Of a stretch of DNA of 64,000 bases, positions 14,723-48,225 are shown in pieces. The notes beneath the pieces are model-generated. The model had not been told where the DNA came from, did no database searches, and was given only the letters and a program-made list of their open reading frames with translations. The stretch covers positions 1 to 64,000 of the forward strand of contig JAJFVF010000010.1 of NCBI GenBank assembly GCA_021371935.1. Reading direction: 5' to 3'. Source of the DNA: a bacterium (GTDB lineage Bacteria; Armatimonadota; UBA5829). The position numbers and the translations under genes are program-made. The first letter of the stretch is position 1; each line of letters begins with the position of its first letter.

Positions 14723-14754
14723 CCCGCATTATTCACGAGCAACGTGAATAATGC
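14721..14754 (+). repeat. Hairpin repeat family B, single-hairpin copy
   Basis: GCATTATTCACG (14726-14737) and CGTGAATAATGC (14743-14754) form a perfect 12-bp stem with a 5-nt loop. The element begins within the pdhB stop codon. The second hairpin found in the other copies is missing. Confidence 0.9.
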
Positions 14755-17083: not shown

Positions 17084-17162
17084 TAACCCGGATTATGTGC
17101 TTTTCGCATAATCCGGGTCTCCGAGAGCATTATTCACGATCTTCGTGAATAATGCGGGCTAA
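17084..17162. repeat. Hairpin repeat family B, complete double-hairpin copy
   Basis: Hairpin 1: CCCGGATTATG (17087-17097) with CATAATCCGGG (17107-17117). Hairpin 2: GCATTATTCACG (17127-17138) with CGTGAATAATGC (17144-17155). The ends TAACCCG and CGGGCTAA mirror each other. It abuts the stop codon of the next gene and may terminate it. Confidence 0.93.
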
Positions 17163-32567: not shown

Positions 32568-33989
32568 TCAGAACCTGAAATCTCTCTCACCAGCGCGAAT
32601 TCTTTCCAGATACTCGTTGGCCTTTGCACGTACCTTGGGGTTCGGTATTTCGGCCATTTCTTTGTCAATCACCTTTTTACCCAGCTCACGGAGTTCATCA
32701 TCTCCATAGTCGTCAAGATACTCCTGCAGAGTAAGGATTGCATTTGGCTGGCACATGTTCTGAATCTGGCCTGTTTTTGCGAACCTCATGAACCTGTCGC
32801 CTGTGCGGCCTTCACGATAGCATGCGGTGCAATAGCTCGGTATATAACCGTCTCGAATCAGGTCTTTGAGCATCTCAGTAGGCGACCTGCGGTCTTCCGG
32901 CTCAAACTGCGGTATTTCGTCTTCAAATCCCAGCTTTGCGGCATTCGCATATCCGCCGACACCGGTGCACGACCCGGCGCTCACCTGCGATATTCCGAGC
33001 GCGATGACTTCGTCACGATAGCCCTTCGGTTCACGTGTAGAGAGTATCATCCCCGTATACGGAGTAGCCAGCCTCAGTATGGCGACAATTTGTTTGAATT
33101 CTTCATCGCTCACCAGATACGGGAAATCTTCGGCATTGACGCCCTCGGCTTTGCGTATTCGGCAGGAGGAGTAGGTATGCGGCCCAACTCCAAATCTGGC
33201 TTCCAGATGCTCGGCGTGCATCAGCAGTCCGGTCACTTCATATTTCCAGTCGTGCAAACCGTATAATACTCCAAGCCCCACATCGTCTATTCCACCGAGC
33301 ATCGCTCTATCGTGGGCTTCGGTATGATATTCATAGTTGCGCTTGGGTCCGGCCAAGTGGAATTTCAGGTAAGTCGGCTTGTGATATGTCTCCTGGAAGA
33401 GCACGTAAGTGCCGATGCCGGCAGCCTTAAGCTTTTTATAGTCTTCGACAGTTGTCGCGGCGATATTCACATTTATACGCCGTATCGAACCGTTATCGAA
33501 CTTGAGTGAGTAGATCGTTTTAATGCAATCGAGCACATATTCAATCGGGCAGTTTACGGGGTCCTCACCGGTCTCCAGTGCCAGACGCTTGTGACCCATA
33601 CTCTCCAACAGCTTTACTTCGCGCGCAAGCTCTTCCTGGTTGAGTTTATGGCGCTTGAATGTATGGTCATGATTATAGCCGCAATAAGCGCATCGATTAA
33701 CGCAGTAGTCAGACACATACAGCGGCGCGAACATGACGATTCTTCGGCCGTATATGTGTTCTTTGACTTTTCGAGCCAGTGCATAGATTTCTTCCATAAT
33801 CTCAGGCGAACTTACATTACAGAGCACAGCCGCTTCTCGATGCGTCAGTCCCTTGAAATCAGCTGCTTTGGCCAGAATTTCCCTGATCCGCACGATATCG
33901 TCTGCCTGCGCGCGTCCCTGCGCGAGAGTCTCCTCTATCTCATCATGACTTATAAACTCATTGGAATCATTGGATTTCGGATCATACAT
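32568..33989 (-). CDS. hydG: [FeFe]-hydrogenase H-cluster maturase HydG
   Basis: 473 residues, full length. This radical SAM tyrosine lyase makes CO and cyanide for the hydrogenase H-cluster. The SAM cluster motif is Cys96-x3-Cys100-x2-Cys103 (CVNRCAYC). The C-terminal auxiliary cluster motif is CTAC followed 22 residues later by Cys (CX2CX22C), which separates HydG from ThiH. Also typical: GIGTYVLFQETYHKPTYLKF and GVGPHTYSSCRIR. It is preceded 4 bp away by the TM1266-type regulator and a structured leader. Genes for HydE, HydF and the hydrogenase itself are not in the window. Confidence 0.96.
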   Translation of the reverse strand: MYDPKSNDSNEFISHDEIEETLAQGRAQADDIVRIREILAKAADFKGLTHREAAVLCNVSSPEIMEEIYALARKVKEHIYGRRIVMFAPLYVSDYCVNRCAYCGYNHDHTFKRHKLNQEELAREVKLLESMGHKRLALETGEDPVNCPIEYVLDCIKTIYSLKFDNGSIRRINVNIAATTVEDYKKLKAAGIGTYVLFQETYHKPTYLKFHLAGPKRNYEYHTEAHDRAMLGGIDDVGLGVLYGLHDWKYEVTGLLMHAEHLEARFGVGPHTYSSCRIRKAEGVNAEDFPYLVSDEEFKQIVAILRLATPYTGMILSTREPKGYRDEVIALGISQVSAGSCTGVGGYANAAKLGFEDEIPQFEPEDRRSPTEMLKDLIRDGYIPSYCTACYREGRTGDRFMRFAKTGQIQNMCQPNAILTLQEYLDDYGDDELRELGKKVIDKEMAEIPNPKVRAKANEYLERIRAGERDFRF

Positions 33990-33993
33990 AACA

Positions 33994-34245
33994 CTACCTC
34001 GTTTCTTTTGCCAGAGCTGTCTTCACCGATACGTTTCGCACCCTGCCGAGCCTGCCGGTGAGCGCGCTTATTTCATCACCAGTCCCGTCTACTATTATTG
34101 ATATTACTGACACTCCGCGTTCCTTATACGGCACGCCCATTCGGCCTACAATGATGCCGGAGAACTCATGGAGTACTGCGTTCACCTCTTCAGCCGCCGA
34201 AATATCTTCGACTATAATTCCTACCACGCCAATACGCTTGTCCAT
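33994..34245 (-). CDS. TM1266-family iron-only hydrogenase system regulator
   Basis: 83 residues from ATG 34245, which directly follows AGGTGGTGAGT. An ACT-like alpha/beta fold: RIGVVGIIVEDISAAEEVNA, then IIVGRMGVPYKERGVSVISI and IVDGTGDEISALTGRLGRV. The family is named for its link to [FeFe]-hydrogenase gene sets and is assumed to sense a ligand; direct DNA binding is unproven. It is the first gene of the hydG unit, 4 bp upstream. Confidence 0.92.
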   Translation of the reverse strand: MDKRIGVVGIIVEDISAAEEVNAVLHEFSGIIVGRMGVPYKERGVSVISIIVDGTGDEISALTGRLGRVRNVSVKTALAKETR

Positions 34246-34255
34246 ACTCACCACC

Positions 34256-34331
34256 TAACCAGGATTATGCGCTTCACGCATAATCTTGGGCTCCAAGAGC
34301 ATCATTCACGCTCTCGTGAATAATGCAGACT
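34256..34331. repeat. Hairpin repeat family B, complete copy in the hydG leader
   Basis: Hairpin 1: CCAGGATTATGCG (34259-34271) with CGCATAATCTTGG (34277-34289), one G-T pair. Hairpin 2: GCATCATTCACG (34299-34310) with CGTGAATAATGC (34315-34326), one G-T pair. It lies between the leader terminator and the TM1266-type start, so it is transcribed whenever the terminator is read through. Confidence 0.92.
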
Positions 34332-34335
34332 AAAC

Positions 34336-34367
34336 AAAAAAGCCCTCTCGCAGATCAGCAAGAAGGC
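34336..34367 (-). terminator. Leader terminator upstream of TM1266-hydG
   Basis: On the minus strand GCCTTCTTGC and GCGAGAGGGC pair over 10 bp (two G-U), 6-nt loop, followed directly by six T. The left arm also belongs to an alternative 7-bp pairing, GAAGGCG with CGCCTTC (34401-34407 with 34362-34368), which would prevent it. Confidence 0.85.
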
Positions 34368-34480
34368 GTATTTGATCGTTCAAATATTAAACGCATAACG
34401 CGCCTTCCCGCTTGGGCTTATCGGCCTTGCGGTCGGGTAATTTATTCAAACCGGCGGTGGAACTAGTCCCATCGCCCGTC
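34336..34480 (-). ncRNA. Candidate riboswitch-like leader RNA of the hydG unit
   Basis: From the predicted start near 34480 the RNA can form a 13-position imperfect stem (ACGGGCGATGGGA facing TTCCACCGCCGGT, two mismatches, CUAG loop). A second stem follows, CCGC/GCGG enclosing GGC/GCC, and then a 7-bp antiterminator with an inner hairpin (ATTTGA/TCAAAT) and the mutually exclusive terminator. This is how transcriptional riboswitches are built. It does not match the riboswitch classes I know (FMN, TPP, cobalamin, SAM, THF, ZTP, fluoride, Moco, NiCo). The ligand is unknown; a protein-bound attenuator is possible. Confidence 0.6.
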
Positions 34481-34486
34481 AGTTAG

Positions 34487-34516
34487 ATTCTATATCTATA
34501 TGCCGCATATTGTCAA
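34487..34516 (-). promoter_or_regulatory. Promoter of the TM1266-hydG leader
   Basis: Minus-strand TTGACA (34511-34516), 18-bp spacer, TAGAAT (34487-34492). The -35 overlaps the stop codon of the preceding Nudix gene, so the unit has its own promoter right after that operon. Confidence 0.85.
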
Positions 34517-41660: not shown

Positions 41661-41730
41661 GCACGAGAGGAGCGTGAATAATGCTTCTCGGGGCCCCGGA
41701 TTATGCTGGAAGTGCATAATCCGGGCTAGC
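41661..41730. repeat. Hairpin repeat family B, partly decayed copy
   Basis: The CGTGAATAATGC arm (41673-41684) is kept but its partner has decayed to GCACGAG. The other hairpin, CCCGGATTATGC (41695-41706) with GCATAATCCGGG (41714-41725), is perfect. Arm order is reversed relative to 17084, i.e. opposite orientation. Confidence 0.85.
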
Positions 41731-47543: not shown

Positions 47544-48225
47544 TTTAAGACATCTAGAGTCGAGGTAAATATACTTTATCGCATGGCAGAATTGCCTGTT
47601 TATCTGCGTAAAGATTGGCGATATTTCGCTCATCGGCGCTTTTGTTGAATATTTGAATCTTCAAAAAACGTGGTTTTGGCATTAATCTTGCTGAGTAATT
47701 CTAATGGCCGAGGGGTGATGTCTTAACCCGCATTATTCACGAGGAACGTGAATAATGCTCTCAGAGACCCGGACTATGCGGTAAGCGCATAATCCGGGTT
47801 AAAAAAAAGACAGAGGATGGCCCGGTGGTTTTGTCGTAGTAAACCATGTGGCGCATGAGTGCCATAATCCACAATTTCCGCGCGGCACAAGTCCGCCGAA
47901 TAATATTCCGCAATAAATTTAGACCTGATCTGTCTTATACGGTCAATTGTATAGTATTAGTGCCGGGCAAAGACCCGGGACGAAATGTCAGTTTGCCGTA
48001 ATGGTGGGCTTGATCGACACGGAAGTTCGAACAATTTGGAGTTGATGCTGGCAGGATGAACACTATGTGAGTTGACTGACCTATGGGTCGGTCAAATGGC
48101 GGGCAGGCAGCGACATATAAGTTGGGCGCAATACCTTATGGTGATGTGCCGGCGATGACAGGCCAGAGACGGAAGTCTATGTCGATGTCCCTGTTATGAG
48201 GTAGTTGGAGGAAGGAGGCTTGTCG
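47544..48225. other. 680-bp gap with a hairpin repeat and a long sigma-factor leader
   Basis: No open frame supports a protein. Family B occupies 47724-47801. Downstream, several stems could form, e.g. GACTGACC/GGTCGGTC near 48073-48093 and CCGGG/CCCGG near 47964-47979, in what looks like a structured leader for the sigma factor. No known RNA class recognised. Confidence 0.55.
47724..47801. repeat. Hairpin repeat family B, complete copy
   Basis: Hairpin GCATTATTCACG (47730-47741) / CGTGAATAATGC (47747-47758) and hairpin CCCGGACTATGCG (47768-47780) / CGCATAATCCGGG (47786-47798). TAACCC and GGGTTA close the ends. An A run follows, so on the minus strand it reads like a terminator preceded by T. 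Confidence 0.93.

Follow-up and report, generated by a model that had tools for sequence, protein, structure and literature searches.

A conserved leader RNA with a double tandem-GA hairpin core ahead of TM1266 and H-cluster maturation genes: a likely new class of RNA switch

The TM1266-hydG locus and its leader

The window analysed here, a stretch of 64,000 nucleotides from an Armatimonadota bacterium (contig JAJFVF010000010.1), carries on its minus strand a gene for a TM1266-family protein (33994–34254; PF21699/TIGR03959, solved relative 2NZC). It is the first gene of the unit and is followed by hydG (32568–33989; TIGR03955, 704 bits), encoding the radical SAM maturase of the [FeFe]-hydrogenase H-cluster; hydE is located elsewhere in the same genome. 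Pfam and NCBIfam searches confirmed the gene identities assumed in the original prediction, which had been made from the sequence alone and had placed a leader ahead of TM1266-hydG. The TM1266 protein resembles only the C-terminal (ligand-binding) half of NikR (positions 55–126 of 141) and lacks the DNA-binding half. As far as we know, TM1266 is the most constant neighbour of hydG and has no demonstrated function, and we know of no work establishing by what means the amount of this machinery is controlled in the cell. HydG uses tyrosine, SAM and cysteine-bound iron; its product is the mononuclear Fe(CO)2(CN)(Cys) synthon, reported to be passed straight from HydG to HydE, whose own product is di-iron (PMC12752695).

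The elements of the leader occupy positions 34335–34516 of the minus strand. The range proposed initially, 34246–34516, includes all of them and also takes in an unrelated repeat (34258–34330). A sigma-70-type promoter (TTGACA-18-TAGAAT, 11 of 12 consensus matches) is located at 34487–34516; two promoter-like sites occur in the stretch against 0.7 in shuffles, and the leaders of related genomes have nearly identical boxes with the same spacing. Next comes an imperfect hairpin, P1 (ACGGGCGATGGGACTAGTTCCACCGCCGGT; 34450–34479), in which four pairs are changed on both sides among eight genomes and a G.G mismatch near the base is conserved; in Clostridia a hairpin of different sequence is found at this position. 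The GC-rich core, a putative aptamer (34403–34437), is supported by alignment, by covariation and by a match to model R3, described below, in the search of the window (E=0.001). Its sequence, CCCGA-CCGC-AAGG-cCGATAAG-CCcaA-GCGG-GAAGG, is arranged as an outer helix, a GA-rich loop, a 4-bp CCGC/GCGG helix, a second GA-rich loop and an inner GG/CC helix, and when folded in isolation it is predicted to form the same pseudo-symmetric hairpin. It is followed by hairpin P4 (CGC-GTTAT-GCG; 34392–34402), whose CGC/GCG stem is invariant in eight Armatimonadota and whose counterpart in Clostridia is longer, by a linker hairpin between P4 and the terminator, and by the intrinsic terminator itself (GCCTTCTTGC/GCGAGAGGGC; 34335–34367), with a 10-bp stem, a 6-nt loop and six T. 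The terminator has a folding energy of -17.9 kcal/mol (z -5.5), a value equalled by none of 200 shuffles; for the whole leader, only one of 200 shuffles folds as well (z -3.4).

The promoter, the imperfect stem, the GC-rich stem and the terminator were thus present as originally predicted. The antiterminator is also there, though not as the 7-bp helix described: the pairing of AGCGGGAAGGCG with CGCCTTCTTGCT extends over 12 bp including G-U pairs. Its 5' strand (34401–34412) is shared with the core's 3' strand and forms the switching strand, and its 3' strand (34357–34368) overlaps the 5' arm of the terminator and takes up most of it. The expression platform uses a strand of the conserved core, and, as had been claimed, antiterminator and terminator are mutually exclusive by sequence. 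In the window the state with core and terminator has a calculated energy of -52.0 kcal/mol and the antiterminator state -53.2 kcal/mol, a gap of 1.2 kcal/mol; two states of nearly equal energy are also seen in the leaders of relatives. These energies leave out tertiary contacts.

The repeat between the terminator and TM1266 (34258–34330, minus strand) consists of two adjacent perfect hairpins, GCATTATTCACG..CGTGAATGATGC and GGATTATGCG..CGCATAATCC. Near-copies are located at 14726–14754, 17090–17155 and 47730–47795, with a partial copy at 41684, and the leader of a related genome (L002) lacks it. It is a dispersed REP-like element.

Conservation in Armatimonadota and other phyla

The TM1266 gene was found in 16 of 201 related genomes, and in seven Armatimonadota genomes besides that of the window it is preceded by the same leader. 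In the alignment of these eight sequences 95% of the cells are paired and five pairs are changed on both sides; 12 cells are changed on both sides against 4.9 in shuffled alignments, and the covariation score is 0.240 against 0.146 for shuffled and 0.04–0.12 for slid alignments. When 291 genomes of the phylum were searched with model R1, the strong matches were precisely the eight leaders of this alignment, one per genome and all before TM1266. The comparison of relatives thus revealed a leader that is kept, with compensatory changes, as the original prediction required.

An exact scan for the core pattern in one genome per species (84,980 species) returned 36 stretches. Apart from Armatimonadota, those confirmed by model and gene context belong to Gracilibacter, Syntrophomonas, other Bacillota and two Candidatus Hydrogenedentes, and outside Armatimonadota the confirmed cores precede TM1266 wherever this gene is in view. 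In these leaders the sequences of the first hairpin and the terminator differ, while the core CCYGACCGCAAGGY..CCRAGCGGGARGG is retained and still overlaps the terminator. Further Clostridial cases were added by model R2, and those inspected in detail were also located before TM1266-hydG.

Three other Armatimonadota TM1266 leaders (L010, L011 and L012) contain shorter variants ahead of a terminator, e.g., GCCUGACACAAAGG..CCCUGACUGAAAGGC, and are probably diverged members. In the rest of Armatimonadota, model R3 added only two weak matches (L245 and L246), one of them inside a coding sequence, and no recognisable copy of the core was found in hydE leaders there. It should be mentioned that R3 gave the window copy a score of only 24 bits and, at E 0.05, did not pick it up when the whole genome was scanned; therefore, the link of the window to the broad class runs via intermediates (L002, L004 and L041–L050).

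General architecture of the core

Comparison of TM1266 upstream regions revealed a common unit, CYGA-N4-RARG, which usually occurs twice. The general form, CYGA-N4-RARG...CYGA-N4'-RARG, is a pseudo-symmetric hairpin; its two GA-rich internal loops are identical, and N4 covaries with N4'. Judged by sequence comparison, the core of the window is the same object. With a fixed descriptor, the double unit was found in 50 of 136 TM1266 upstream regions, the mean in dinucleotide shuffles being 0.05. Among 29 distinct pairs of central 4-mers, 12 are fully complementary (CCGC/GCGG, TTGC/GCAA, TAAA/TTTA, CTTA/TAAG, TAAT/ATTA, GGGA/TCCC, TTAC/GTAA, TACC/GGTA and others) against 1.4 on permutation of partners, a value not reached in any of 20,000 permutations. 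The descriptor did not match about half or more of the sampled TM1266 leaders.

In alignment A4 (21 sequences), 93% of the cells of the nested hairpin are paired, 55 are changed on both sides against 18 in shuffled alignments, and column 14–23 covaries in five pair types. Since the A4 sequences were picked partly for their complementary 4-mers, the unselected evidence is the descriptor and permutation analysis of the 136 regions. An arrangement of two kissing hairpins, which would share the central 4-bp pairing, was rejected because the flanking pairs agree more closely with the nested form (93% versus 85% of cells).

Genes preceded by the RNA

Model R3, built from A4, was used for whole-genome scans. 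In 249 sampled genomes of one phylum, 122 of which contain TM1266 (TIGR03959), it gave 46 matches with E 0.05 or better, in 34 genomes. Twenty-three of these lie within 260 bases before TM1266 and six just after TM1266 and before hydG; the other 17 comprise five directly before hydG, five before a gene for an ECF S-component, one after hydA at a contig end, two in unrelated coding sequences and four that remained unresolved.

In a class represented by 26 genomes, 25 with TM1266, R3 matches were found in 19. They precede hydG (L222, L229, L234–L238 and L240), hydE (L223, L224, L226, L227 and L230), hydF (L241), TM1266 alone or followed by the S-component gene (L190, L220, L221, L225 and L231–L233) and the S-component gene alone (L213–L215 and L239); one match lies inside an unrelated gene (L228). 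NCBIfam confirmed HydE, HydF and HydG next to the matches. In genome G762 the RNA precedes hydE and TM1266 was not found, although this genome is possibly incomplete. In L213–L215 the 3' strand of the core is the Shine-Dalgarno sequence. Several pattern or R3 matches (L026, L034, L035, L054, L208, L228 and others) lie inside coding sequences and were put down to chance.

Thus, in several lineages the RNA is placed before functionally coherent genes: hydE, hydF, hydG, TM1266 and the ECF S-component gene. By gene position, this is essentially the full H-cluster maturation set. Neither the double tandem-GA hairpin core nor the placement before hydE, hydF and the S-component gene had been foreseen in the original prediction.

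The S-components downstream of the RNA form one family (37–57% identity) that matches PF12822 and has no NCBIfam name; examples are encoded at L190 1930–2458, L213 1540–2032 (reverse strand), L210 1545–2106 and L239 1687–2182. By RNA placement this unnamed component is coregulated with hydEFG, and its gene sometimes lies directly 3' of TM1266.

In some Clostridia (L191, L193, L194 and relatives) one copy of the RNA precedes TM1266 and a second, located 36–45 bases past the TM1266 match, precedes hydG. At L087, a match to TwoAYGGAY (RF01731) just over the gathering score was found shortly after TM1266 (1841–1906).

Comparison with known RNA classes

A match to a known class would have refuted the prediction of an unknown one. 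No match was found in Rfam 15 for the whole window at gathering thresholds, and with relaxed thresholds the leader gave only unrelated noise (best weak matches with E 0.1–10). A cmscan of the Clostridial and Hydrogenedentes leaders and of 20 further loci, at gathering and relaxed thresholds, likewise revealed nothing relevant; in particular, no covariance-model match at gathering score was obtained to Moco, glycine, SAM, THF, guanidine, NiCo or T-box. Neither Rfam nor the literature searched yielded a description of this RNA, and the 2010 and 2024 motif papers, a 2022 riboswitch review and an acetogen hydrogenase survey do not mention it; the search was not exhaustive for motif surveys, so that an earlier description is not fully excluded. 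The RNA family is apparently widespread and undescribed. Together with the conservation in relatives, these results support the reading of the window leader as riboswitch-like and of unknown class.

The closest parallel in biological setting is the Moco RNA motif (RF01055), a leader found before metal-cofactor biosynthesis genes, transporters and cofactor-using proteins, with expression platforms of the attenuation or RBS type; its gene context led to the proposal that the cofactor is its ligand (PMC2408646). It differs from the RNA described here in structure and sequence, and the genes here serve the biosynthesis of the H-cluster instead of Moco. Guanidine-II (mini-ykkC) is a small RNA of two similar tandem units joined by a loose linker, each unit having few conserved bases. 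The RNA described here resembles it in two-unit build and in scarcity of conserved bases but gave no match to it in cmscan; unlike the ACGR loops of guanidine-II, which kiss, it has YGA/RAR internal loops in one nested hairpin, with a central helix that varies freely. ANTAR dual hairpins and the kink-turn were considered and set aside, since no fixed G stands at position 4 of the loops and the internal loops have a symmetric form. The regulons of the TPP, cobalamin and FMN riboswitches similarly combine biosynthesis genes with an importer (ECF S-component) under one RNA class with OFF logic, but those RNAs have other structures and other ligands. To our knowledge, nobody has shown the import of an H-cluster precursor.

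Proposed mechanism and ligand

Based on these data, which do not include measurements of binding or expression, we consider it likely that the leader represents a new class of cis-acting RNA switch for H-cluster maturation genes, an OFF switch responding to some small molecule in the H-cluster pathway. Within the known riboswitch-type leaders it would be set apart by its unusual two-site symmetric core and by a regulon not previously tied to RNA. Binding of a ligand, and the small-molecule nature of that ligand, are inferred. A bound ligand would stabilise the core and hold its 3' strand, GCGGGAAGGCG; the terminator could then form and end transcription ahead of TM1266-hydG. With no ligand bound, this strand would instead pair with the 5' arm of the terminator (12 bp), letting RNA polymerase read through. 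In relatives where this strand is the Shine-Dalgarno sequence, ligand binding may hide it. Since this strand serves as the antiterminator strand in terminator-type leaders and as the Shine-Dalgarno sequence in L213–L215, a stabilised core is expected to turn expression off in both; the direction of control is inferred in this way. The RNA probably serves to silence these genes once cofactor, or some related signal, has reached a sufficient level.

The identity of the ligand can be inferred from gene context only. Because the same RNA precedes hydE, hydF, hydG, TM1266 and the S-component gene together, the ligand may be an end product or intermediate of the H-cluster pathway, or a compound imported by the coregulated S-component, by the same reasoning as in the assignment of the Moco motif (PMC2408646). 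A regulon wider than TM1266 and hydG makes tyrosine or SAM less likely ligands and indicates the pathway as a whole. The direct transfer of the synthon to HydE, if correctly reported, argues somewhat against the free synthon as the signal. A more specific version, in which the RNA directly senses an organometallic intermediate or product (e.g., Fe(CO)2(CN)(Cys), [2Fe]E or a derivative) and the S-component imports such a compound or its precursor, is speculative and in our estimate unlikely. If true, recognition of an iron-carbonyl-cyanide complex by an RNA would have no known precedent.

Alternative explanations

The main alternative, which we judge rather unlikely but do not exclude, is that the RNA is a protein-binding site, most likely for TM1266, which would bind the hairpin, cause termination or hide the ribosome site, and so autoregulate its operon and the hyd genes in the manner of PyrR or ribosomal-protein leaders. 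No other protein is as closely linked to the RNA as TM1266, which is annotated as a putative Fe-only hydrogenase system regulator: it belongs to the regulon, is most often its first gene, and is present in nearly all RNA-bearing genomes, as in the 26-genome class above, for which reason a protein ligand is not excluded. This small protein forms homo-oligomers and has a sensor fold like that of NikR, and a twofold-symmetric RNA with a fixed 4-bp spacing would suit a dimeric protein; however, NikR acts on DNA through a domain that TM1266 lacks, and we know of no RNA binding by TM1266. Many genomes with TM1266 have no recognisable RNA (compare 122 with 34 among the 249 above), G762 has, with the reservation given, the RNA without the protein, and the inclusion of an ECF S-component among the controlled genes is characteristic of riboswitches that sense metabolites. 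A metabolite ligand and TM1266 binding are not separable by sequence data alone.

Quite improbable, in our opinion, is a metabolite riboswitch whose ligand lies outside the H-cluster pathway proper and is a shared input or a signal (for example tyrosine, cysteine, SAM, ferrous iron or a redox signal). The substrates of HydG would fit it, and tandem GA pairs often bind metal ions, but it would make little sense for an OFF switch to repress HydG at high levels of its substrate, and hydE and hydF are under the same RNA. Switches for SAM, iron or cysteine would be expected before many other genes, whereas outside the H-cluster and S-component genes only a handful of weak R3 matches were found, several of them in coding sequences. 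A constitutive attenuator or chance structure without ligand, conserved by recent common descent only, could be entertained for a single genome, where a terminator alone would look similar, but it is hardly credible given compensatory changes, three phyla, five gene families and conserved loops with free helix sequence.

Implications

By its placement, the conserved RNA groups hydE, hydF, hydG, TM1266 and a transporter component into one regulon, provides a handle on H-cluster control and on the function of TM1266, and makes the ECF S-component a candidate member of H-cluster metabolism. Synthetic versions of the HydG and HydE products are already in use for semisynthetic maturation (PMC12752695), so the question of the ligand is directly testable. 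Removal of the switch could improve hydrogen-producing strains.

Some leaders upstream of TM1266 contain more than one copy of the core elements: two complete double units are present in L110 and L157, and three CCUGA units in L119, L120 and L124. These tandem copies suggest cooperative or two-stage control.
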